From a virus: a stretch of DNA of 21,868 nt. The notes under the pieces were generated by a model that saw only the letters and a program-made list of their open reading frames with translations, had not been told where the DNA came from and did not search any database. Shown piece by piece: positions 8,305 to 21,868 of the stretch (position 1 is the stretch's first letter; every line of letters starts with the position of its first letter). Both the position numbers and the translations under genes were made by a program. Where the stretch lies: the IMG/VR virus record IMGVR_UViG_3300046011_004384, positions 1 to 21,868 of that record; one strand, given 5' to 3'.

Positions 8305-10601
8305 GCACCGCAAAGGGCATGGTCGAGATCAAGGTGACCGCGGACATCCCAGGAGATGATCCGCAGTTGTCTCCGCGCTTCATCAATGCGCGCCTGCTGA
8401 CTCCCGAGATCGAGGCCATCTGCCGCCGGCAGGGCGTCGAGACCTCGGACATCAACAGCATGAAGTGGCCGATCTTCGGCCTGTCTCGCCATGCGACGTG
8501 CAAGCTGCTGATGCTCAGGAGCGACTTCCTCCGACTCCTGTTCGAGAATCCAGACGACTGGCGTTCTGAATTTCTCGGATTAAACTTAGAACTCAGATCA
8601 TTTGCCATCTGGTTCTTCTGCGGGAGCGCAGCCGAATCAGGCTACACGCGGTTTGACCGCATGTATGTCGGCAACATCCAGCCGCTCGCCGTGACCAACA
8701 ACGGCCTCGTGCAGAGCGTCCCGCGCGTCGACGGGAACGGCGATCCCGTCATCGATCCCGAGACCAACGAGCAGATCGTCGACAAGTTCAACGAAGGCGA
8801 TGCCATGTACGTCGTGACGTTCCACGACAGCAGGTGGCGATTTGCTGGAGTCAGATTGCCCTTTGGCGTTATCGCTGGAAACAATCTTCCCAAGCTAAAA
8901 GAGGTCAGCCCTCTTTCATGGCGGGACGACCTCGAGCTGAAGACTACAGCCGACTTGAAGTCTCCCAAGGCCATCATCGAGAGGATCGTCACGGATCTTC
9001 TTTCCGTAAAATTAGTTGGTTCTCCTCAAGAAGGGTTATTCATACCGCAGGGCGCTCAGCCTTCCAGGTACGACACCTATGCGGATGAAACCACGGCTGC
9101 CAATGGTTTTCGGCCTGAATACGAAACTCCTTTCGAGTGGGAAACAGGTTTCCCAGGAATCGACAGCTACTCAAGCAGGCCGGTGACCGAGTTTGCCGAC
9201 TACCTGCTGACGAAGTGCGGTCTTGCCATTGCGGTGTTCCCCAAGCAATACCCGGCGGAAGATGGATTCAACTTCGTCGTGAAAAAGCAGGGATACCTCG
9301 TCGAAACTGAGACGTCAAGAACTGCTTCATACCTGATTGACAACGACTATCAGGACGACGTGATCGCAGGTTCTCGGCACGGCACGGGAAGAGAGTTTCA
9401 AAATCCAGACACGTCATCGACGTGGGTTGCTCGGATACTAAACATCCCTTTCTATGACGAGTTCTTTGCCTTGGATTCTTTGTATGGCGTCGTTGTAAGG
9501 AAGCCCAATCAACCAGATGGCCGTCCGCCAGACGTGTTCAAGGTTGACTACTCGCAGAGGAATCCTGGGACTCTCTACACGACAAGCGAATACTTGCCCA
9601 ACCCGTTCTCCCAGCACATCGCGTTTGTTGGAGAAGGTCAACTTGACGATCGCGGCCAAAGGTTGCAAAGCTCAATCTTTGCCGATGAGGTCATGCCTGC
9701 CAGGCTGTTTGAAAATCGGCAAGAGCTCAAGAGCAGGTCTGTTTCAGTGATTTATGAACCTGCCGTTATTCCGCCTTATGGCGGCTTTGGAAACCCGAAA
9801 GAACAGAAAGACATTACAAAGTGGTATAAAGATCTCGTCGAAAGACGACGGGATGCCGAGGTCTGCGACATCTGGCTCAGGGGATGGGCGAAGCCGCCTG
9901 GATTCGACGCATGGTTCGGAGCCTCGTGGATCGAGTACAGATTGCAGACGGATCAGGACGGCTTCGGCTATCCGACGACGCGCATCTGGGGCGACTACGA
10001 CGACCCGCTGTTCATTCCCATCGCCGACCGAGGTCCGCTCGAGATCTCGACGAGTGGGCTTGCGAAGTCGTGGCGCGACTGCCGCGGCAAGAACCACATC
10101 CACGTCGACTGGCCGTTCGGCATCCCGTGCCTGATCAAGATCACCGGCGTCGTCGGTCCGTTCAACGCCGGAATCAAGGCATGGCAGTACAAGGCGCAGA
10201 TCGTCCTTCGCGATGCGACGAACAGCCTGTACCCGCCCAACGGCCCGTTCCTCGGGCAGCTCGTCAACTTCTCCCTCATCGACGCTTCGTGGGCGGAGAA
10301 GGAGCTCGTCGCGTACAACCTCGCGGAGCTCGCGAACAAGACGAACTTCGCGGCGCCTGGCTACAGGCTTCCGCTCGCGCAGAGCGGGTTCGACATCCTT
10401 CCGATCGGGCAGGACAGGCTCGGCAACACCAACGAGGTCATCGTGCAGGGAATGCTGTACCTCGACGCGAAGGTCGGCAACGCAGACGACACCGCCAATC
10501 CCGACAGCACAGCCGTCGTCTACTTCTGCCTGTCGAACGCGGTCGACGGCGACTGTCCTGCTCCGCTGACTGACACGACCTACGACGCGGGGGTGTACTG
10601 A
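8301..10601 (+). CDS. Putative tail-tip / hub-like structural protein (766 aa)
   Basis: 766 residues, ATG overlapping the previous stop (ATGA). No family recognised with confidence. Probable tail-tip or hub component from its place between the 690-residue protein and the fibre genes. Recognisable blocks are a 'DAMYVVTFHDSRWRF' strand near residue 175, 'PEYETPFEWETGFPGIDSY' near 275-290, a 'VARILNIPFYDEFFALDSLYG' segment around 380-400 and 'RDCRGKNHIHVDWPFG' around 590-605. It ends in TTYDAGVY, which weakly resembles the DGG-x-[FY] tag of the fibres downstream. The middle (about 8565-9850) is much less GC-rich than either end, with many A/T third positions, so the gene is compositionally mosaic although its reading frame is intact. 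Confidence 0.6.
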   Translation: MSTAKGMVEIKVTADIPGDDPQLSPRFINARLLTPEIEAICRRQGVETSDINSMKWPIFGLSRHATCKLLMLRSDFLRLLFENPDDWRSEFLGLNLELRSFAIWFFCGSAAESGYTRFDRMYVGNIQPLAVTNNGLVQSVPRVDGNGDPVIDPETNEQIVDKFNEGDAMYVVTFHDSRWRFAGVRLPFGVIAGNNLPKLKEVSPLSWRDDLELKTTADLKSPKAIIERIVTDLLSVKLVGSPQEGLFIPQGAQPSRYDTYADETTAANGFRPEYETPFEWETGFPGIDSYSSRPVTEFADYLLTKCGLAIAVFPKQYPAEDGFNFVVKKQGYLVETETSRTASYLIDNDYQDDVIAGSRHGTGREFQNPDTSSTWVARILNIPFYDEFFALDSLYGVVVRKPNQPDGRPPDVFKVDYSQRNPGTLYTTSEYLPNPFSQHIAFVGEGQLDDRGQRLQSSIFADEVMPARLFENRQELKSRSVSVIYEPAVIPPYGGFGNPKEQKDITKWYKDLVERRRDAEVCDIWLRGWAKPPGFDAWFGASWIEYRLQTDQDGFGYPTTRIWGDYDDPLFIPIADRGPLEISTSGLAKSWRDCRGKNHIHVDWPFGIPCLIKITGVVGPFNAGIKAWQYKAQIVLRDATNSLYPPNGPFLGQLVNFSLIDASWAEKELVAYNLAELANKTNFAAPGYRLPLAQSGFDILPIGQDRLGNTNEVIVQGMLYLDAKVGNADDTANPDSTAVVYFCLSNAVDGDCPAPLTDTTYDAGVY
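8565..9850 (+). other. Low-GC island inside the 766-residue gene
   Basis: Hand counts of 60-base blocks: 8581-8640 48% GC, 9001-9060 47%, 9721-9780 45%, 9781-9840 43%, against 67% at 10021-10080 in the same gene. Third positions shift to A/T. A GC-richer stretch interrupts it near 8641-8835. Confidence 0.75.
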
Positions 10602-10792
10602 TGGCGGACATCTTCCTCATCAAGCGCAGCAGCACGCCAGGCTCCGTCCCGCAGCCCACGCAGTTGCAGCTCGGCGAGCTGGCGATGAACACCGCCGACG
10701 GCAAGGTGTTCCTGAAGAAGGCCAACGGAGTCGTGACGCAGGTGAGCGGCGGGATCCAGGACGGCGATCAGATAGACGGCGGAAACTTCTAG
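10601..10792 (+). CDS. Small fibre-module protein (63 aa)
   Basis: 63 residues, TGATG overlap with the previous gene. It consists almost only of a module found at the N-terminus of two longer fibre proteins in this window: 'IKRSSTPGS...LQLGELAMNTADGKVFLKKANGVVTQV', compare 13516 and 14601. This is a common N-terminal module of phage fibre proteins ('IKRS..g....l..GELA.N..DGKlF.K'). It ends in QIDGGNF, matching the C-terminal tag of neighbours (VDGGDF, IDGGTY). So it looks like an attachment module joined directly to a C-terminal tag with no shaft in between. It may act as an adaptor or be a relic of a fibre gene that lost its middle. The first option fits better because frame and spacing are intact. 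Confidence 0.75.
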   Translation: MADIFLIKRSSTPGSVPQPTQLQLGELAMNTADGKVFLKKANGVVTQVSGGIQDGDQIDGGNF

Positions 10793-13515: not shown

Positions 13516-14601
13516 ATGGCTAACACACTGCGGATCAAGCGGCGGGCATCAGGAGCAGCGGGAGCGCCGTCGAGCCTTGCGAACGCGGAGCTCGCGTTCA
13601 ACGAGGTCGACGACACGCTGTACTACGGCAAGGGCAGCGGCGGCGCCGGCGGCACGGCGACCACGGTCGAGGCTGTCGCGGGCAAGGGCGCCGTGATGAT
13701 GCTCACGGGCAACCAGACCATCGCCGGCACGAAGGCTTTCACGGGAACGCTGACCGCGCCGACCGTCGCGAGCGTCGACTCGAGCACGAAAGTCGCCACC
13801 ACAGCATGGGTCAACGGACAGAGCTACCTGACCTCGGCTGTCAGCAGCGTCGGCCTGTCGCTGCCATCGTTCATCACGGTGACCAACTCGCCCGTGACGA
13901 CGAGCGGCACGCTGACTGGAACGCTCGCCTCGCAGACGGCCAACACCGTGTTCGCTGCTCCGAACGGCAGCGCCGGCGCGCCTACGTTCCGCACGCTCGC
14001 GTCCGCCGACATCCCCGACCTGTCGGCGTCGTACCTGCCCATCGCGGGCGGCACGATCACGAGCAACCTCACGGTGACGGGCAACCTCACGGTGAACGGA
14101 ACGACCACGACCGTCAACTCGACGACCATCGACGTGGCGGACAAGAACATCACGCTCGGCAACGTCGCGAGCCCGTCGAACACGACGGCTGACGGCGGCG
14201 GCATCACGCTCAAGGGAGCGACCGACAAGACGTTCAACTGGGTGAGCGCGAACCAGGCATGGACCTCGAGCGAGTCGATCCGACTGAATCCGCAGAAGGG
14301 CTTCTTCCTCCTCAACGGAACGAAGGGCTTCTACTCGACCGCCAGCACGTCGTTCCTCGCGGCGCATGCGGTCATCACCGACGACATCGTCTGCACGAAC
14401 GCGATCTCTGGCAGCGTGACAGGTACGGCGGCGAACGTGACTGGCACGGTCGCCATCGCAAACGGCGGAACGGGCGCGACTGATGCTCCGACCGCGCGCA
14501 CGAACCTCGGGCTGGGTACGATGGCAACGCAGGCCGCGAGCAACGTCGCGATCACCGGCGGCACGATCGACAACATCACCATCGACGGAGGGACGTACTG
14601 A
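13516..14601 (+). CDS. Tail fibre protein with N-terminal module and DGG tag
   Basis: 361 residues. ATG 13516 follows a 15-base gap with no strong ribosome site (only CGGAAC). The N-terminus is the shared module 'ANTLRIKRRASGA...LANAELAFNEVDDTLYYGKG'. Then come shaft-like repeats: 'LTGNQTIAGTKAFTGTLTAP' and 'ATTAWVNGQSYL' (as in many fibres), 'SVGLSLPSFITVTNSPVTTSGTLTGTL', 'NGTTTTVNSTTIDVADKNITLG' with 'ADGGGITLKGATDKTFNW', and 'ANGGTGATDAPTARTNLGLGTMATQ' near the end. The last residues are NITIDGGTY. A typical trimeric fibre shaft or knob protein. An 18-bp tandem repeat at 14065-14100 encodes NLTVTGNLTVNG. Its stop overlaps the next start as TGATG. Confidence 0.8.
   Translation: MANTLRIKRRASGAAGAPSSLANAELAFNEVDDTLYYGKGSGGAGGTATTVEAVAGKGAVMMLTGNQTIAGTKAFTGTLTAPTVASVDSSTKVATTAWVNGQSYLTSAVSSVGLSLPSFITVTNSPVTTSGTLTGTLASQTANTVFAAPNGSAGAPTFRTLASADIPDLSASYLPIAGGTITSNLTVTGNLTVNGTTTTVNSTTIDVADKNITLGNVASPSNTTADGGGITLKGATDKTFNWVSANQAWTSSESIRLNPQKGFFLLNGTKGFYSTASTSFLAAHAVITDDIVCTNAISGSVTGTAANVTGTVAIANGGTGATDAPTARTNLGLGTMATQAASNVAITGGTIDNITIDGGTY
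14065..14100 (+). repeat. 18-bp imperfect tandem repeat in fibre gene
   Basis: AACCTCACGGTGACGGGC (14065-14082) is followed by AACCTCACGGTGAACGGA (14083-14100), 15 of 18 bases the same. It encodes NLTVTG-NLTVNG, a unit of the fibre shaft, and is a likely site of slippage that changes shaft length. Confidence 0.75.
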
Positions 14602-16136
14602 TGGCGAACACCATCCGCCACAAGCGCAGCTCGACGACGGGCGCAACGCCTGCGGCGGGTAGCCTCGTCACTGGAGAGCTCGCGGTCAACACCGCCGACG
14701 GCAAGCTCTTCACCAAGAAGGACAGCGGCACGGTCGTGGAGATCGGCGGCACTCCCGCGGGCAGCACGAGCCAGGTGCAGTTCAACAGCTCTGGCGTGTT
14801 CGCAGCCGACGACGGCCTGACGTTCACGTCGGCGAGCGAGACCCTGCGCGTCGGCAGCGGTGCGAACCACCTGAAGCTGTACAGCGATGCCTACCAGACG
14901 TTCGTAGAGCCCGTAGGCGGAGCCCTTCGCCTTCGGCATCCGTCGGGCGGCTACATCACCATCGGCGATGCAAGCGCGACGGGATCGATCGGAACGGGAA
15001 CGAACATCCTCGTGTCCGCCAACGACGCGAGCATCACGAACTACGCGCAGCTCGTGTGGAACCGAGCGCCCGTCTTGACCGAGGGCGTGGCGACGTTCCA
15101 GGCGAACGTAAACCTTCAGGCGAGCCTGCTCCTGAACAACTCGCAGGGAACCAATGGTCAGGTGCTGACCTCGACGGGAAGCGGAGTTCAGTGGGCAACT
15201 CCGAGCAGCGGAGGCGGGTCGTCGTTTATATCCAGAACGCAGTTCGACTCTTCTTCTACATACACCATCCCGACAAATACGAGGTTACTTCGTATTTTCG
15301 CAGTCGGCGGTGGTGGTGGCGGCGGCGGCGGATATCGACGCGCAAGCGCCGGCAGCGGCGGTGGTGGAGGTGGCGGGATGCCAGCTCAATCCGCGCTCAT
15401 CGAAATCAATGCGTCGTTTTTCGGAGGTGCGGGTGTCGTTCTCGGTATAACCATCGGCGCAGCTGGAACCGGCGGCGCAGGAGGAGCGACCGACAACTCG
15501 AACGGGTCTGCTGGAACGGCTGGTGGCGATACGATCATCACTTGGAATGCAAGTGGAAATACGTTTCTGAAATGCCTTGGTGGGCCAAAGGGAAACGGCG
15601 GCACGGCGTTCGCTGGCGGAACAGCGGATTCAGGCAGAGGCCACTACTTCTATCCTACATTACAGCCGCTTTCAACGGCTGCGGGATCGGGCGGCGGATA
15701 TGGTTCGACAGTATCAGCTGTCGCTAGTCAAACTGGTAGCCCAGTTTATTGCTTCGGAACGGGAGGAGCTGGTGTCGCTGCTGCTGCTGATTACGCGGCA
15801 GGAGCCGTAGTCAACTACTTCTTTTGGTCCACGACTGTACCGATGGTCGCTAAAGATCTTCCTGCGTCATCCACTACGGGAATCATTATCAATGGGGGAG
15901 TTGCAGGAGGAAACGGCGGCAATGCATCAGCGAACGTGACCGACCTGATGAGCATCGGTCTTCCTGGGTCTGGCGGCGGAAGCGGATACAACAGAAACGC
16001 AGGAAATGGTGGAAACGGATATCGCGGCGCCGGTGGTGGCGGCGGCGGTGCATCAAACTCGTCTGGAACGGGATACGCGGCAGGCAACGGCGGCAACGGC
16101 GGAAATGGATACGTCTGCATTGAGGCATACGCATGA
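14601..16136 (+). CDS. Tail fibre / adhesin with glycine-rich tip
   Basis: 511 residues, TGATG overlap with the preceding fibre gene. Residues 1-50 are the shared N-terminal module ('ANTIRHKRSSTTGA...LVTGELAVNTADGKLFTKKDSGTVVEI'). Residues 50-205 are shaft-like and end in 'GTNGQVLTSTGSGVQWATP', a motif common near the end of fibre shafts. From about residue 207 the protein changes: 'SFISRTQFDSSSTYTIPTNT', then from 235 long glycine runs separated by hydrophobic strands to the end ('GNGGNGGNGYVCIEAYA'). This is the pattern of polyglycine-rich adhesin tips that bind the host surface. The tip is encoded by an AT-richer stretch (42% GC at 15241-15300). It has no DGG tag. Confidence 0.85.
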   Translation: MANTIRHKRSSTTGATPAAGSLVTGELAVNTADGKLFTKKDSGTVVEIGGTPAGSTSQVQFNSSGVFAADDGLTFTSASETLRVGSGANHLKLYSDAYQTFVEPVGGALRLRHPSGGYITIGDASATGSIGTGTNILVSANDASITNYAQLVWNRAPVLTEGVATFQANVNLQASLLLNNSQGTNGQVLTSTGSGVQWATPSSGGGSSFISRTQFDSSSTYTIPTNTRLLRIFAVGGGGGGGGGYRRASAGSGGGGGGGMPAQSALIEINASFFGGAGVVLGITIGAAGTGGAGGATDNSNGSAGTAGGDTIITWNASGNTFLKCLGGPKGNGGTAFAGGTADSGRGHYFYPTLQPLSTAAGSGGGYGSTVSAVASQTGSPVYCFGTGGAGVAAAADYAAGAVVNYFFWSTTVPMVAKDLPASSTTGIIINGGVAGGNGGNASANVTDLMSIGLPGSGGGSGYNRNAGNGGNGYRGAGGGGGGASNSSGTGYAAGNGGNGGNGYVCIEAYA

Positions 16137-16320: not shown

Positions 16321-16537
16321 GTGGACGGCGTACCAGTTCCTCCTGCGGTTCACCGCCGAGGAGCGCGCCGCGTTCCGAGCGGCGGCTCTGACCGACGCGA
16401 ACGTCGCCGACTTCCAGCAGCTCGCGCAGGCCGCGCAGGAAGTCGTAAGCGACGACCCGATGACCGTGGCCGGCATGAACTACCTCGTGTCGGTCGGACT
16501 CCTCACCGAGCAGCGCAAGCAGGAGATCCTGGGATGA
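16133..16537 (+). CDS. Fibre-associated small protein (possible fibre assembly factor)
   Basis: 134 residues, ATGA overlap with the adhesin gene. Two parts: residues 1-62 (MKFAIVDQSNKVVNVVISDM..., then a 'EGEVCFIGQDFDANANPRFSG' segment) have the look of a small N-terminal domain found beside tail fibre genes ('kyAiv.ng.VvNvv...'). Residues 63-134 (WTAYQFLLRFTAEERAAFRAAALTDA... then ...GLLTEQRKQEIL) form a helical domain that recurs in short phage genes next to fibres. Its function is not known to me. Chaperone or assembly factor is a guess from position. GC content jumps between the two parts (57% to 72% at about 16320), so the halves may have different histories. Confidence 0.65.
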   Translation: MKFAIVDQSNKVVNVVISDMNWPVDPEMQKVEVLEGEVCFIGQDFDANANPRFSGNQPSTPQSWTAYQFLLRFTAEERAAFRAAALTDANVADFQQLAQAAQEVVSDDPMTVAGMNYLVSVGLLTEQRKQEILG

Positions 16538-16734
16538 CCTTCGAGCAGTTCGGCACGATCATCGCGCCGATGGCGACGGTGCTCGCGGCGAGCGCGTGGA
16601 TCCACGGCTCGCTCAACCGCCTCGCCATCAAGGTCGAGGTGATGAACTCCAAGCTCGATGACTACGGCGAGCGTATCCGCCGCATCGAGAAGGAACTTGA
16701 CGAGATAAGGAAGAACGACCATGCAAGACACTAA
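16534..16734 (+). CDS. Small membrane protein with coiled coil (lysis-type)
   Basis: 66 residues from ATG 16534 (ATGA overlap). The frame is open upstream to 16246, but there it is a shadow of the preceding gene. One hydrophobic segment at residues 7-24 (GTIIAPMATVLAASAWIHG) is followed by an amphipathic, charged helix from about 30 to 60 (LAIKVEVMNSKLDDYGERI...). N-terminal membrane anchor plus coiled coil is the shape of inner-membrane spanins and of XhlA-type accessory proteins, though XhlA has the opposite order. It overlaps the holin-like gene by 14 bases, so the two are probably translated together. Lysis role is inferred from context. Confidence 0.65.
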   Translation: MTFEQFGTIIAPMATVLAASAWIHGSLNRLAIKVEVMNSKLDDYGERIRRIEKELDEIRKNDHARH

Positions 16735-16909
16735 GCCTGGCTACAAGACCACCGAGTTCTGGCTCTCCTTTGCGGCGCTCTGCATCGGCGCGGCGTTCGC
16801 GAGCGGCGTGTTCCCGACCGAGTCGACTGGCGACAAGATCCTTGGCCTTGCGGCGACCGTGATGTCGGCGCTCGGCTACACCGTGTCGCGGACGATGGTG
16901 AAGAAGTGA
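16721..16909 (+). CDS. Holin-like small membrane protein
   Basis: 62 residues with two predicted membrane segments (about 13-30 and 40-55), a short polar N-terminus and a basic C-terminus (SRTMVKK). The layout 'KTTEFWLSFAALCIGAAFASG' ... 'ILGLAATVMSALGYTVSRTMVKK' is typical of small phage membrane proteins often labelled holin. Holins form pores in the inner membrane that time lysis. AAGGAAG lies about 8 bases before the ATG. The gene overlaps the previous one by 14 bases and its stop overlaps a GTG in another frame (GTGA). No endolysin gene is next to it, so the label rests on topology and context. Confidence 0.65.
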   Translation: MQDTKPGYKTTEFWLSFAALCIGAAFASGVFPTESTGDKILGLAATVMSALGYTVSRTMVKK

Positions 16910-17250
16910 CGCAAGGCTACGACGACTGGTATGAGGAAAACGCGCCATGCTCGAGCGCATCGTCGCACATGTCGTCGTCTCGCTGGCTTCGTGGCTTGAA
17001 GGACGCATTGCCGCCGGCAAGGTGGCTATGGACGCCGACATTGACCGCGATCATCTTCGCCGCACTGGTGGTCGCGTGCGCGAGTGGCTGCGGTCGGACG
17101 GTGTTCGTACACGAGTCGACCCCGATGCGGGTGGGGCCGATGTCCAAGACAAGGGTGTATCACAGGATCGCGGGTGAATGGGTGCTATCCGCGAACCCTG
17201 TTCCAATTCCAGAGGGCTGGTATCTGGTCCCACCGTCGTTCGTCGAATAG
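16906..17250 (+). CDS. Lipoprotein-like reading frame (possible outer spanin)
   Basis: Frame open from GTG 16906 (GTGA overlap with the holin-like gene) to TAG 17248-17250, 114 residues at most. A hydrophobic segment TLTAIIFAALVVACASGC carries lipobox-like cysteines (VVAC and ASGC). After it comes a short soluble part ending 'PIPEGWYLVPPSFVE', similar to small phage lipoproteins with a 'pEGWY' end. A full-length start would put 45 residues before the signal segment, which is too long. Starts at ATG 16969 or, better, TTG 17008 (with GAAGGA at 16998-17003, giving MPPARWLWTP...) fit a lipoprotein signal better. An 80-residue lipoprotein is my preferred reading. Another frame, at 16947, overlaps most of it. 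Confidence 0.6.
   Translation: MTQGYDDWYEENAPCSSASSHMSSSRWLRGLKDALPPARWLWTPTLTAIIFAALVVACASGCGRTVFVHESTPMRVGPMSKTRVYHRIAGEWVLSANPVPIPEGWYLVPPSFVE
16933..16937 (+). promoter_or_regulatory. Ribosome site for the 16947 start
   Basis: GAGGA at 16933-16937, followed by an A-rich stretch, lies 9 bases before ATG 16947. It is a stronger site than any before the overlapping GTG 16906, and is the main reason to accept the 16947 frame. Confidence 0.5.
16947..17177 (+). CDS. Overlapping gene in the lipoprotein region (76 aa)
   Basis: 76 residues in a different frame from the lipoprotein. ATG 16947 has GAGGA at 16933-16937, a good ribosome site 9-10 bases away. The sequence starts 'MLERIVAHVVVSLASWLEGRIAAGK', then 'VAMDADIDRDHLRRTGGRVREWLRSDG', an arrangement (weakly hydrophobic helix, DAD, R-x-G-x-R-x-x-x-W) that reads like a small phage protein rather than random shadow. 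The C-terminal third is less convincing. Overlapping lysis genes in two frames are known from Rz/Rz1 pairs, but this protein has only a weak membrane segment, so inner spanin is not supported. Function unknown. Confidence 0.5.
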   Translation: MLERIVAHVVVSLASWLEGRIAAGKVAMDADIDRDHLRRTGGRVREWLRSDGVRTRVDPDAGGADVQDKGVSQDRG

Positions 17251-17257
17251 GTGGAAC

Positions 17258-17264
17258 AAAGGGG
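17258..17264 (+). promoter_or_regulatory. Ribosome site deciding the phosphoesterase start
   Basis: AAAGGGG ends 4 bases before ATG 17269 and lies after the alternative GTG 17251, favouring the shorter 290-residue product. Confidence 0.6.
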
Positions 17265-17268
17265 TGTC

Positions 17269-18141
17269 ATGGCGGATCTCGACAACATCCAGGTGAGGAA
17301 GACCGACAGGTCTGTGCTCAGGATCGACTACCGTCCTGAGAAGCAGTGCGAGCCGATATGGTTCCTGCTTCGCTCCGACGCGCATCACGACAACGCGCAC
17401 ACGGACCAGGACATGGAGCTTCGCCATCTCGAGGAGGCGAGGCGCAGGAATGCGCTCATCCTCGACAACGGCGACTTGCACTGCGCCATGCAGGGCAAGT
17501 TTGACCGGCGGTCCGACAGGTCCGCCCTGCGACCCGAATACCAGTTCGGGAACTACCTTGACCGCCTGGTGGACGAAGCGGTCAAGTTCTACGCTCCATA
17601 TGCGCCCAACTGGTGCATGATGGGGCTTGGCAACCACGAGACCTCGATCCTGAAGCACCATGAGACGAACCTCACGGAGCGCACGGTCGAGCGCCTCAAG
17701 ATGGCCGGCGCGGTCAACCTCCAGTTCTCCGCGTATGCGGGCTGGGTGCGGCTGATCATCTGCCCGAAGGGGAACCGCAAGTCGGCGAGCCTTTGGATGT
17801 ACAGGCACCACGGCTATGGCGGCGGCGGACCCGTGACGCGCGGGACGATCCAGACCTCGCGCATGGCGGTCTACCTGCCCGACGCCGACATCGTGTGGAC
17901 GGGACACACCCACGACCAGTGGATACTGCCGATCGAGCGTTACCGTGTCACAAGCGGCGACGTACCCTACCTCGACAGGCAGATGCACGTCAGGACTCCC
18001 GGCTACAAGGACGAGTTCTCGCCGCAGGAGGGATGGCATACGGAGCGGGGAGGACCGCCGAAGCCGCGGGGAGCCTTGTGGCTCAAGGCGTGGCTGAACA
18101 AGGACACCAAGGTCGAGTACGAGATTACGGAGGCACGCTGA
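17269..18141 (+). CDS. Calcineurin-like metallophosphoesterase
   Basis: 290 residues from ATG 17269 (GTG 17251 is in frame but less well placed; AAAGGGG at 17258-17264 serves the ATG). All metal-binding motifs of the calcineurin-like family are present in order: D37-A-H39 in LLRSDAHHD, G68-D69 in ILDNGDLHC, G121-N-H-E124 in GLGNHET, a histidine pair at 180-181, and G212-H-T-H215. These bind two metal ions and hydrolyse phosphoester bonds. The real substrate (nucleotide, nucleic acid, phosphoprotein or other) cannot be read from the sequence. It has no signal peptide or membrane segment. It lies between the lysis-type genes and a fibre gene, with its stop overlapping the next start (TGATG), so it belongs to the same late transcript. 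Confidence 0.9.
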   Translation: MADLDNIQVRKTDRSVLRIDYRPEKQCEPIWFLLRSDAHHDNAHTDQDMELRHLEEARRRNALILDNGDLHCAMQGKFDRRSDRSALRPEYQFGNYLDRLVDEAVKFYAPYAPNWCMMGLGNHETSILKHHETNLTERTVERLKMAGAVNLQFSAYAGWVRLIICPKGNRKSASLWMYRHHGYGGGGPVTRGTIQTSRMAVYLPDADIVWTGHTHDQWILPIERYRVTSGDVPYLDRQMHVRTPGYKDEFSPQEGWHTERGGPPKPRGALWLKAWLNKDTKVEYEITEAR

Positions 18142-18491
18142 TGGCCGCAGGCACCTACAACATGATCATCGAGCAGGGTACGGACATCACCCGTACGTTC
18201 ACCTACACCGACGACGCAGGAGTCGCGTTCAACCTCGCGGGCTACACGGCGCGCATGCAGGGACGCGCGTCCATCCAGAGCACCGCGACGATCTTCGAGC
18301 TGACGACTGCAAACGGCGGACTGTCGATCCCGACGCCCGCCAACGGCACGATCGTGATGACGATGACCTCGGCGCAGACCTCGGCGTACCCGTGCGACGG
18401 CGTCTACGACCTCGAGATCATCGACTCGTCGGGCAAGGTGACGCGCCTCGTCGAGGGCCAGTTCACGCTCTCTGGAGAGGTGACGCGATGA
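18141..18491 (+). CDS. BppU-like N-terminal domain structural protein (116 aa)
   Basis: 116 residues from ATG 18141 (TGATG overlap). Upstream open frame to 17793 is a shadow of the phosphoesterase. The layout fits a common phage structural domain: 'YNMIIEQGTDITRTFTYTDDAGVAFNLAGYTARMQ', then 'FELTTANGGLSIPTPANGTIVMTMTSAQTSAY', then 'GVYDLEIIDSSGKVTRLVEGQFTLSGEVTR'. The pattern 'QG.d....f.y.D..G.p..LtGy.arm' and ending 'vYDlei....G.v.rL..G...ls.eVTR' is seen in BppU-type baseplate proteins and many tail-fibre-associated proteins. It probably docks a fibre to the tip. The next gene begins at its stop (ATGA), and both fibre-like genes follow. Confidence 0.75.
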   Translation: MAAGTYNMIIEQGTDITRTFTYTDDAGVAFNLAGYTARMQGRASIQSTATIFELTTANGGLSIPTPANGTIVMTMTSAQTSAYPCDGVYDLEIIDSSGKVTRLVEGQFTLSGEVTR

Positions 18492-19360
18492 ACGTCAACG
18501 TCACCGAGACCACGACGGGCGTGCAGATCAGCGAGAACCCAGCGGGTCTTGCGAGCGGCGTGCTCACGGGTTCGTACCCGAATCCCGCGCTGAACTACGG
18601 CGCGGTCGACCATGTCGCGATGGACCGGAGCTCGTACAGGCTCTTCAGCGACTTCGGTCACAACGCATCGCCGTGGAACGTCTTTACCGCCGTAGGTGCG
18701 ACGGCGACGTACACGCACCTCTACAGCGGCGACACAATCCACTACGTCACGATCTCGCCGGCGATTAACACGGCTGCATCCCGCGGATGGATCAGCGACC
18801 GTCCCGATGTCTCCGTTCAGCCGCAGATGGTTTTCGGAACTGGATACGCGGCATCGAACTTCTCGGCAAGAGTTCGGGTGAACAAGGGCGCGCAGACGAA
18901 CATCACCTACCGCGTCGGATTCAGCCAAGGGCATGCGCCGCCGATCATCGGACAGAGCGGACTGGTAGGCGATGGCCAGGTGAACGCCTGCTGCTTCCTG
19001 TGCTACGGAAGCAAGACGACATGGCATGCGCTTGCGGCTGCGAAATACATCAGGGATCCCAGCGAGCCAGCATTCAACACTGGAGACGCGACCGAGATCG
19101 ACACCGGAATCGCGGTAAACGACTGGCACGTCCTCGAGGTCCGCGTGAACGCAGCCGGCACGCAGGCGCTGTTCTACATCGACGGCGCACTTGCGGCGAC
19201 CATCACGACCAACATCCCGACCGTCGCAACGGCGGATGTGAAGTCGAACGGCAACTGGTGCATGGCATGCTGCTCGGTTCGCGCCGGAGATTCAGGAATC
19301 ACCGCATTGGCGCCGTTCGACATCGACTGGCAGTCATTCGAGTACAAGCGAGCGAGGTAA
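18488..19360 (+). CDS. Lectin-like tail fibre protein A
   Basis: 290 residues, ATGA overlap. The N-terminal peptide MNVNVTETTTGVQISE is similar to that of the next gene. It is followed by 'SGVLTGSYPNPAL', a version of the 'GdLtGtYPnPt' motif of many fibres. The second half is beta-rich with 'DTGIAVNDWHVLEVRVNAAGTQALFYIDG', then 'TTNIPT', and ends in an 'IDWQSFEYKRAR' strand. This is the layout of a concanavalin/LamG-like jelly-roll, likely to bind carbohydrate on the host or to decorate the virion. Six cysteines (for example CCFLC near residues 169-173) are unusual for a phage fibre. The upstream open frame to 18392 is a shadow of the previous gene. Confidence 0.7.
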   Translation: MNVNVTETTTGVQISENPAGLASGVLTGSYPNPALNYGAVDHVAMDRSSYRLFSDFGHNASPWNVFTAVGATATYTHLYSGDTIHYVTISPAINTAASRGWISDRPDVSVQPQMVFGTGYAASNFSARVRVNKGAQTNITYRVGFSQGHAPPIIGQSGLVGDGQVNACCFLCYGSKTTWHALAAAKYIRDPSEPAFNTGDATEIDTGIAVNDWHVLEVRVNAAGTQALFYIDGALAATITTNIPTVATADVKSNGNWCMACCSVRAGDSGITALAPFDIDWQSFEYKRAR

Positions 19361-19363
19361 CCC

Positions 19364-20137
19364 ATGAAGGTCAGCATCGACAGCACAACCAACGCCGTCA
19401 GAATCTCCGACTCGGGGATCCTCGCGACACCTTCGTACGTCACCCGGACGTTTGATCCTCGCATCCTTGTTCGCATGTTCTGCGACTTTCACAACTCAAG
19501 TTCTCCGTTCGTCGAGTTAGTGCAGTCGAACGGATCCATTGTGTACGGAAACTCCGACACTTCGGCAAATGTGATCAGGGGAGTTTCGGTTCTCAATGCA
19601 TCACCGACCGTGAATGGCTCTTCGGCTGCGATCAGGACACATCCGTCCAACTACGCAATCGAACCCACAGCTGGCGTCGAGGTTCGGTTCTCTGCAAACG
19701 CACGTCTTCTTTTCGAGACTCCTTCGCAGCAGACCCTCATGCGAAGCGCGGTCGGATTCTTCGCCACGCAGGGAGCGAATCCCCTCAGGGCAATCTGCTT
19801 TAGAACCGGCGCATTCACTGGCTTGACGGCGACGAACACATGGTGGTGCTCGACCATCCATACGCCGGACGGCGGCGGGGCAACAACTACGACCAACTTC
19901 AACACGGGCATTTCCGTAGAGACCTTCAGGAACCTGTCGATCGAGATCAACCCGAACTTCTTGCAGGTCGTGTTCAAGATCGATGGATCAACGGTCTACA
20001 CGTCGACCACGAACATCCCTCCGCCGAACGCTATCGGGCTTCTGGGAGGCGCGTACGTCACCAACTCGAGCGCATCGGCTGGAAACAACAAGCTCCTGCT
20101 CGACTACATGCTCCTCGACCAGTACGTCAACCGATGA
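19364..20137 (+). CDS. Lectin-like tail fibre protein B
   Basis: 257 residues, ATG 19364 three bases after the previous stop, with GAGG upstream. It looks like a diverged paralogue of the preceding gene: shared N-terminal pattern (M-x-V-x-[IV]-x-x-T-T-x-x-V-[QR]-I-S) and shared C-terminal jelly-roll order ('NTGISVETFRNLSIEINPNFLQVVFKIDG', 'TTNIPPPNAIG', final 'LLLDYMLLDQYVNR'). A putative host-binding or decorating fibre subunit. Middle sequence is different and the DNA from about 19440 to 19900 is somewhat AT-richer (52% at 19501-19560 by hand count). No transmembrane segment. Confidence 0.7.
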   Translation: MKVSIDSTTNAVRISDSGILATPSYVTRTFDPRILVRMFCDFHNSSSPFVELVQSNGSIVYGNSDTSANVIRGVSVLNASPTVNGSSAAIRTHPSNYAIEPTAGVEVRFSANARLLFETPSQQTLMRSAVGFFATQGANPLRAICFRTGAFTGLTATNTWWCSTIHTPDGGGATTTTNFNTGISVETFRNLSIEINPNFLQVVFKIDGSTVYTSTTNIPPPNAIGLLGGAYVTNSSASAGNNKLLLDYMLLDQYVNR

Positions 20138-20142
20138 AGGAG
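20137..20142 (+). promoter_or_regulatory. Ribosome site deciding the 20149 start
   Basis: AAGGAG sits 6 bases before ATG 20149. The earlier in-frame ATG 20134, which overlaps the upstream stop, would lie before this site, so 20149 is the better start. Confidence 0.65.
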
Positions 20143-20148
20143 AACCGC

Positions 20149-20415
20149 ATGTCACGGCGCAAGAAGGACCAGCCAGCTGACGACAGCGACGACATCACGC
20201 CGCTCTATCTCGCCGAGCGGGCGGCGCGCGAGTTCGTCGAGGCGGTCGGTGCCGACGCCGTCGTGATCGTGTGGACCACGCAGAACAAGCGCGCCACGCG
20301 GTACTGGCGCCATCAGATCGGCAACGCCATGCTATGCAACGCTCTCATCGAGAAGACGGCGGAGCAGCAGGAGGAGCAGTTGTCCGAGGTCGAGGAAGAG
20401 GAGGAGGATGAATGA
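20149..20415 (+). CDS. Small protein with acidic C-terminal tail
   Basis: 88 residues from ATG 20149 (93 if from 20134). A basic N-terminus (SRRKK) and acidic patch (PADDSDD) are followed by a central folded part (LYLAERAAREFVEAVGADAVVIVWTTQNKRATRYW) and a tail ending in EVEEEEEDE. I do not recognise the family. The middle has the look of a small alpha/beta domain with a hydrophobic VVIV strand. No membrane segment or catalytic motif. It is translationally linked to the cysteine-rich gene downstream (ATGA overlap at 20412), so the two may function together. Small acidic proteins of this sort can act as chaperones or inhibitors, but nothing here proves that. Confidence 0.6.
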   Translation: MSRRKKDQPADDSDDITPLYLAERAAREFVEAVGADAVVIVWTTQNKRATRYWRHQIGNAMLCNALIEKTAEQQEEQLSEVEEEEEDE

Positions 20416-21868
20416 GCGCCGCCAGAGGATGCTGCTGCGGAGGAGAGCGTTGCGAGTACGGTGACTGCCTGTCGGGAGCCGAGGTGGAGGACGGCTGCTG
20501 CCATGCGTGCGACACCCTGCTCATGTGGTGCGAGCGGCCACAGACGCAGCTCCAGCAGCACAGCGCGTACGGCGGACAGATCCCAGGCACCGTGCCGTGC
20601 GAGACGTGCTACACGGTGACGAACTTCGGCCTGCCGCCGGTACAGGCCATCTACAAGTTCTACAAGTCGTTCTACCGCTGCGTGTTCTTCGACCTGACGC
20701 CGACGCAGCTGGTGACGCTGCCGCCGTCATGCCCGAACTGCCCGGGCGACCCGCCCGTCACAGACTGCTGCTCGACGCAGTTCGACGACGGCAACTGCCA
20801 GTGCTTCTCGTTCGAGGCGGGCTACGGCGGCATCAACTCGTACCGGCGCGCCGAGATGATGTCGGACGACGCCACGAAGTGGTTCATCGAGATGCGCTGC
20901 TTCAAGCAGGGGCAGACGATCGGCGGCAGCATCGGCGTCGGCAGCATGTTCACCGAGATGCTGTGCCTCGTGTACCAGGAGCGGTGGTGGCGCATCGCGA
21001 TGGACTGCGACGGCAACGTGCGCATCTACGTCCCAGGCTGCAACCAGAACGTGGGCAACCCGCCCACGTCGAACTGCGGCGGCATCCCGTTCGTCGAGTC
21101 GCAGCTCGTGCCGAAGTACTGGATCTACGCGTGCAGCGGCATCCCCCTCTACAGGTGGGAGGTCGACGAGGCCATCGTCCGCGGCGTCATCACGGGCGAC
21201 GAGGCGAGCTCGCTGCTGATCGACATCGGCAACAAGATCACGCCGAACCAGACGATCCTCGCGAAGCTCGGCGATGCCGGCTACATCAAGGCGGGCGACT
21301 GGCGCGCCGAGCAGCGGCAGGCGTACGTCGACCTGCACGCCCTCTACCCGAGCGCCGGCTACGGCCAGTGCATCCAGCCCGTCGAGCAGATGCACACGCT
21401 CGGGCCGTTCCGCAAGCGCCTGACCGAGCCGCTCGTCGGCGTGAACAACAACGCGCTCGTCCGCAAGACGATGGTGATCCCCGAGTCCGCGGGCTTGCAG
21501 GCCGACTGCTTCCTGCCGTACGCGGGCGACACCGACGACCAGGCCGCGTACAACTTCTGGTCTGAACGCCAGTGGGTCTACTTCCGAGGCGTGCCTGGTG
21601 GTTGGACGTGGGCGGGATGGTCTCCTGTCTCCGACCCCGCGTGCTTCGGGCTCGGGCTGACCGAGGAGGAGGCGATCCTGCGCGGCTGCGGTCGCGGGGA
21701 CACGGGATGCCTCGAGGCGATCAAGGGCAACCCGCGCGGACCGACGCAATGCACGCCGTGCGCATGCATCAACCCTGCGTACAACTGCTGCGACTCATGC
21801 ACGGACGACTGCGAGCTGAACTGCGGTCCAGGCGCCGTCACGTCGTGCGCGGACGGACAGCTGCCCGT
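20412..21868 (+). CDS. Large cysteine-rich protein (3' end outside window)
   Basis: Open from ATG 20412 (ATGA overlap) to the last base without a stop: 485 codons plus two bases. By hand count about 38 of 485 residues are cysteine (about 8%). They cluster at the N-terminus (residues 7-40: CCC, then pairs and singles), at 63-66 (CETC) and 107-120 (CPNC, CC), and in the last 40 codons (447-485: CTPC, CC and several singles). The middle (about 140-420) looks like a normal beta-rich domain with 'YGGINSYRRAEMMSDDATKWF'-type strands and few Cys. No signal peptide is visible. Probably a virion protein with disulfide- or metal-stabilised end modules, from its place in the late region; function unknown. 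Confidence 0.75.
   Translation, partial: MSAARGCCCGGERCEYGDCLSGAEVEDGCCHACDTLLMWCERPQTQLQQHSAYGGQIPGTVPCETCYTVTNFGLPPVQAIYKFYKSFYRCVFFDLTPTQLVTLPPSCPNCPGDPPVTDCCSTQFDDGNCQCFSFEAGYGGINSYRRAEMMSDDATKWFIEMRCFKQGQTIGGSIGVGSMFTEMLCLVYQERWWRIAMDCDGNVRIYVPGCNQNVGNPPTSNCGGIPFVESQLVPKYWIYACSGIPLYRWEVDEAIVRGVITGDEASSLLIDIGNKITPNQTILAKLGDAGYIKAGDWRAEQRQAYVDLHALYPSAGYGQCIQPVEQMHTLGPFRKRLTEPLVGVNNNALVRKTMVIPESAGLQADCFLPYAGDTDDQAAYNFWSERQWVYFRGVPGGWTWAGWSPVSDPACFGLGLTEEEAILRGCGRGDTGCLEAIKGNPRGPTQCTPCACINPAYNCCDSCTDDCELNCGPGAVTSCADGQLP

Follow-up and report, generated by a model that had tools for sequence, protein, structure and literature searches.

The window analysed here, a 21,868-base IMG/VR fragment, ends in a gene for a large cysteine-rich protein whose family has so far been met only in uncultured phages. 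Our best explanation, which we hold with about even confidence, is that this open reading frame encodes a large tailed-phage virion protein whose cysteines lie mostly in intramolecular disulfides that would close outside the cell, assisted by a small CxxC-bearing partner. Phage proteins fold in a reducing cytoplasm and for that reason usually contain little cysteine. The features of the window that bear on this explanation are listed by coordinate.

329–727: scaffold-like gene (phrog_673, E 4e-17)
762–1781, + strand: major capsid protein (phrog_1005, E 7e-7)
1804–2343: adaptor gene (phrog_195, E 2e-9)
16534–17250, + strand: probable lysis genes, two small membrane proteins and a spanin-like lipoprotein with an ASGC lipobox (sequence reading and alignment)
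17251–18141, + strand: calcineurin-like metallophosphoesterase, a syntenic neighbour (PF00149, E 4e-5; phrog_7339, E 2e-11)
18138–18491, + strand: phrog_1084 protein (E 8e-24; also phrog_3304, L-shaped tail fibre assembly, E 7e-12)
18485–19360 and 19364–20137, + strand: two variable late proteins, possibly fibre or appendage, less conserved than their neighbours and with no confident family match
20134–20415, + strand: small acidic protein of ~93 aa, adjoining the cysteine-rich gene in the window’s clade only; no family match
20412–21866, + strand: cysteine-rich protein, N-terminal 485 residues (~75%), running off the window end; homologues 27–82% identical; dN/dS ~0.26
20412–20546, + strand: N-terminal cysteine cluster CCC-x4-C-x4-C-x9-CC-x2-C, with Cys 8, 14, 29 and 30 invariant in 25/25 full-length members
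20775–21749, + strand: central conserved domain, cysteine-poor over residues 251–400, with its own AlphaFold model
21699–21866, + strand: second cysteine cluster, residues 430–485, extending past the window into a cysteine-rich C-terminal part

The capsid, scaffold-like and adaptor genes place the window in a tailed phage. The cysteine-rich frame opens with an ATG at 20412 and runs for 485 codons with no stop before the window ends; the exact count of 38 cysteines (7.8% of residues) and the open frame bear out the earlier note, which had given about 38 cysteines and a protein running off the window. Cysteines occupy positions 7–9, 14, 19, 29, 30, 33 and 40 within residues 1–50; 63, 66, 90, 107, 110, 119, 120, 129 and 131 within 51–150; 163, 185, 199, 210, 222, 241, 320 and 366 within 151–400; and 411, 426, 433, 447, 450, 452, 459, 460, 463, 467, 471 and 479 within 401–485. 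Density peaks in residues 1–50 (nine), 101–150 (six) and 401–485 (12), with just two in 251–400, so the description of clusters at both ends and few cysteines in the centre was accurate. Judged from a full-length homologue, ~165 residues with ~13 further cysteines lie beyond the window, forming the cysteine-rich C-terminal part (residues 486–650 in homologue numbering). The central domain carries the conserved motifs ERWWrIA, DWRxEQRQA, LGPfRKR and RQWVYFRGvPGGWxWAGW.

Cysteine content in the remaining window genes is mostly 0–2.6%, with 3.9% in one open reading frame of uncertain start. The binomial chance of at least 38 cysteines at a 0.9% background is ~2e-23, and chance is excluded as the source of this richness. 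Against an 82%-identical homologue, 38 of 39 cysteine positions are kept and dN/dS is ~0.26; the corresponding values are 0.16 (metallophosphoesterase) and 0.48 (major capsid protein). The ratio of ~0.26 indicates purifying selection on the cysteine-rich gene, and the retained cysteines together with the dN/dS value show that the frame is not an artefact of reading frame or composition.

Profile scans of IMG/VR gathered homologues from 31 contigs, at identities down to ~27%; one more homologue lies on a 45.7-kb metagenome contig (CAINDT010000349.1, hereafter L002). The L002 homologue is complete, with 650 aa and 52 cysteines, and is 82% identical to the window protein over the shared part. The 25 full-length members span 633–904 aa and contain 46–67 cysteines (6.4–9.4%). 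The gene is single-copy in each virus record with a match, and the virus records without a match are fragments. One scan of cellular genomes returned L002, filed in an ‘actinobacterium’ metagenome-assembled genome (MAG), as its sole match, and 396 genomes of that MAG’s phylum held no further match. L002 is filed under an actinobacterium, yet the lysis region (window 16906–17250) encodes a spanin-like lipoprotein with the ASGC lipobox. Such a lipoprotein would suggest a host with an outer membrane, and L002 may be mis-binned.

Known families were sought widely. Nothing scored above cut-off in Pfam, PHROGs or NCBIfam for the window protein or the members scanned, and PDB sequences returned nothing meaningful for a single sequence or a profile. 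Neither 50,697 phage records (no relative of the cysteine-rich, capsid, acidic or downstream protein) nor 72,556 plasmids (no match to the cysteine-rich protein) added a family member; one weak phage-record match (E 3) was judged to be chance. Searched as separate modules, the N-terminal 45 residues and residues 430–485 (the earlier note had named 447–485) had no PDB or NCBIfam match. The library of papers searched contained no description of the family. The protein had been called a candidate for an undescribed virion component, with a known family of different role as the natural counter-case, and none emerged from the Pfam, PHROGs, NCBIfam, PDB, phage or plasmid sets.

An AlphaFold model built from 22 sequences reached a mean pLDDT of 80 and a pTM of 0.82, with low confidence at residues 1–20. 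Neither PDB nor BFVD contained a significant match to the full model (best Z 2.6); the central domain modelled alone (pLDDT 76, pTM 0.70) had no PDB match. The top fold matches were at noise level and lend no support to kinship: the MACPF/perforin fold (Foldseek best E 0.06–0.1, probability 0.02, TM 0.05–0.06), porins (Z 2.6) and ribosomal proteins. A missing match for a predicted model in PDB and BFVD is no proof of a new fold.

Gene order in the window runs from scaffold-like, capsid, adaptor, tail and fibre-like genes to the probable lysis genes, a label taken from sequence reading, as 16534–17250 had no confident family match. Three genes, at 10601–10792, 13516–14601 and 14601–16136, start with one type of N-terminal segment (KRSxxxGxxP...GELAxNxxDgklf); they are apparently related and fibre-like, one with a glycine-rich domain at its end. 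Across the window lineage, fibre-like genes are followed by the small membrane proteins, lipoprotein, metallophosphoesterase, phrog_1084 protein, two variable proteins, acidic protein, cysteine-rich protein, a small CxxC protein, exonuclease VIII/DUF3799, RecT and a helicase. The cysteine-rich gene and its CxxC partner thus close the late region, after the tail and lysis genes. The metallophosphoesterase is among the most conserved genes (74–85% identical across relatives). A 37%-identical counterpart lies after endolysin and membrane-protein genes in Rhodobacteraceae phage LS06-2018-MD07, and in the L104 and L062 subgroup the metallophosphoesterase sits just downstream of the cysteine-rich gene and partner rather than upstream.

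The earlier note had proposed that the small acidic protein, whose stop does overlap the cysteine-rich start by four bases (20412–20415) as described, keeps the larger protein soluble or reduced. That chaperone role was dropped: only one clade places the acidic gene beside the cysteine-rich one, whereas among the loci examined the neighbour kept across clades is a small protein encoded downstream that bears CxxC and CxxCGC motifs. This protein matches phrog_13558 (E 2e-6 to 7e-9) and, weakly, DUF6171; it is a neighbour of the cysteine-rich protein and not homologous to it. Examples with the pattern CxxC ... CxxCGC ... CPxxKW lie behind the cysteine-rich gene in most clades (L002:11963-12400; L097:7989-8285; L110:7914-8366). 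The downstream protein was not found at the L056, L075 and L115–L121 clade loci.

Position beyond the lysis genes in the window lineage speaks against a virion protein and makes a late role outside the virion possible. Such a protein would be set free or displayed as the cell lyses, might act on the cell envelope or on competing phages, and would form its disulfides extracellularly. The order in the window lineage, where the gene follows the probable lysis genes and metallophosphoesterase, speaks for this, as does a group in which it stands directly behind the spanin-like lipoprotein gene. However, no enzyme family is evident, the N-terminus is unlike a signal peptide, and copies in two divergent phages, G408 and G411, sit among structural rather than lysis genes. 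We consider this alternative rather unlikely.

The G408 gene is flanked on one side by an adaptor-like gene (PF24175, weak) and on the other by a gene for a 1231-aa protein bearing CBM96; it lies downstream of genes that resemble portal, scaffold and capsid by size and order. PHROGs and Pfam gave no portal or capsid match in G408, where, apart from CBM96 and the weak adaptor assignment, the labels are our reading, mostly of gene size and order. In G411, the cysteine-rich and CxxC pair precedes genes for 878-aa and 4073-aa proteins near a recognised major head protein. The 4073-aa protein (L126:2906-15124, − strand) contains zero cysteines and has weak DNA-ligase-type matches at about residues 1597–1681. 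The cysteine-rich gene in these divergent phages is thus probably inside a structural module, and these neighbourhoods favour a structural role over one in lysis or DNA functions. Of the proposal that this is an undescribed virion component, the first half stands on the searches above; the virion location we infer from the structural module in distant relatives.

How the cysteines are used can be addressed from their conservation. Among the 25 full-length members, 12 cysteines show no variation and a further 14 reach at least 90% conservation. Where otherwise conserved cysteines are absent, they tend to disappear two at a time, at distant positions. In homologue numbering, the lost pairs include 131/163 in L056, 531/601 in L058, 602/623 in L053 and 584/606 in L072. 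The pair 320/366 is lost in L054 and L075, 66/450 in L061 and again in the L115–L121 clade, and 19/241 also in that clade. At the clade level, 33 is co-lost with 426, 63 with 467 and 411 with 433; in L068, 210 and 222 are both gone through one single deletion.

Within 17 closer sequences, 14 cysteine columns each have one tip-specific loss, and six sequences account for 12 of these 14 losses, exactly two apiece. With branch-length weights, the chance of no odd tip for those 12 losses is ~6e-4 in a small sample judged after the pattern was seen; it rises to 0.026 when the two extra events, both of which look like alignment slips, are kept. An even-number rule was considered and rejected: cysteine totals were even without exception in the first seven full-length members, but the 25 members comprise 14 even and 11 odd. 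We therefore make no parity claim, and totals that are not preferentially even suggest that some cysteines are free or bonded between chains, so that not every one need have an intrachain partner.

The paired losses fit disulfides better than four-ligand metal sites. A metal-binding or Fe–S protein of the virion or infected cell, its clusters holding zinc, iron or Fe–S, would account for the dense, invariant N-terminal cysteines, and it has a precedent in the Fe–S cluster of the C-terminal domain of lambda gpL. The downstream partner’s CxxC and CxxCGC motifs are likewise typical of metal sites. The variable conserved cysteines, however, vanish by two at distant positions and not by four, and we judge a metal protein unlikely. 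The paired-loss approach is blind to the invariant N-terminal cluster, and a protein that combines disulfides with one metal site would also fit the data. The choice between metal and disulfides that the earlier note had left is thereby narrowed: disulfides are favoured, and metal is less fitting, the N-terminal cluster aside.

The bacterial cytoplasm is normally reducing, and the protein N-terminus, on inspection, has no evident signal peptide. A cytoplasmic host-takeover or assembly factor outside the virion, its cysteines kept reduced as a thiol or redox buffer, would suit both observations and the adjoining small CxxC partner. Yet metallothionein-type buffers differ from this family, whose core is folded, confidently modelled and marked by invariant aromatic and charged motifs, and the paired losses fit covalent partners. 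Such a factor seems improbable to us.

For the virion protein that we favour, we hypothesize the following course. The protein would be made late in the host cytoplasm, without a signal peptide and probably reduced, and incorporated into an exposed region of the particle such as the tail, an appendage or the connector. Assembly is likely helped by the downstream CxxC/CxxCGC protein, which might act as a metal-stabilised thiol chaperone. A search of 16 virus records turned up no phage gene for a thiol oxidase (Erv/Alr), VKOR or thioredoxin; given this result and an N-terminus unlike a signal peptide, oxidation most likely takes place at or after lysis. On meeting oxidising conditions there, the disulfides would close to give a rigid, stapled form. 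By analogy with known phages, they could double as a redox-sensitive lock that is loosened at infection.

A bolder version, which we offer tentatively and think doubtful, is a virion protein of new fold, built reduced with a dedicated CxxC partner and self-locking through ~20–30 disulfides outside the cell. If it holds, this would be, to our knowledge, the most disulfide-dense phage protein, carried by tailed phages that are otherwise dissimilar. More generally, a conserved family with 6–9% cysteine whose residues change in pairs suggests a covalently stapled phage part that matures only outside the cell. If true, this would matter for how stable particles are in natural waters and for infection triggered by redox change. 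The co-lost pairs provide a concrete, testable disulfide map, and the family aids annotation of a phage group without an isolate.

Three known systems invite comparison. Lambda gpL carries an Fe–S cluster, which some homologues are without (PMC13243795). Conserved cysteines in a phage tail-region protein are the likeness. The gpL cysteines form a single small site that holds one cluster, whereas the cysteine-rich protein has dozens, lost in pairs. No gpL or tail-tip relative of it was found by sequence or fold in PHROGs, Pfam or PDB, a result that does not exclude kinship. The capsid of phage 7-7-1 contains a disulfide network (PMC12796354) and resembles our case in its high cysteine content (2.58% over four capsid proteins) within interconnected bonds. 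There, however, the bonds join capsid and decoration proteins, whereas the window capsid protein has one cysteine and the cysteine-rich protein is separate.

Agrobacterium phage Milano has a disulfide network in its sheath and baseplate, and contraction of its tail in vitro required DTT in addition to guanidine (PMC10811340). What the two would share is cytoplasmic synthesis of virion proteins that acquire disulfide bonds in the particle, with a suggested role in stability and redox-controlled infection. In Milano many proteins carry the cysteines (2.1% of structural proteins), with many interchain bonds and a contractile tail. The window has no such rise across many structural proteins (capsid 0.29%, tail proteins mostly 0–1.4%), and no match by sequence or fold was found for the cysteine-rich protein. 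Instead, one protein carries 6.4–9.4% cysteine while the other virion genes of the window are cysteine-poor. The family is new to the libraries searched; the principle of a disulfide network is already known in phages.
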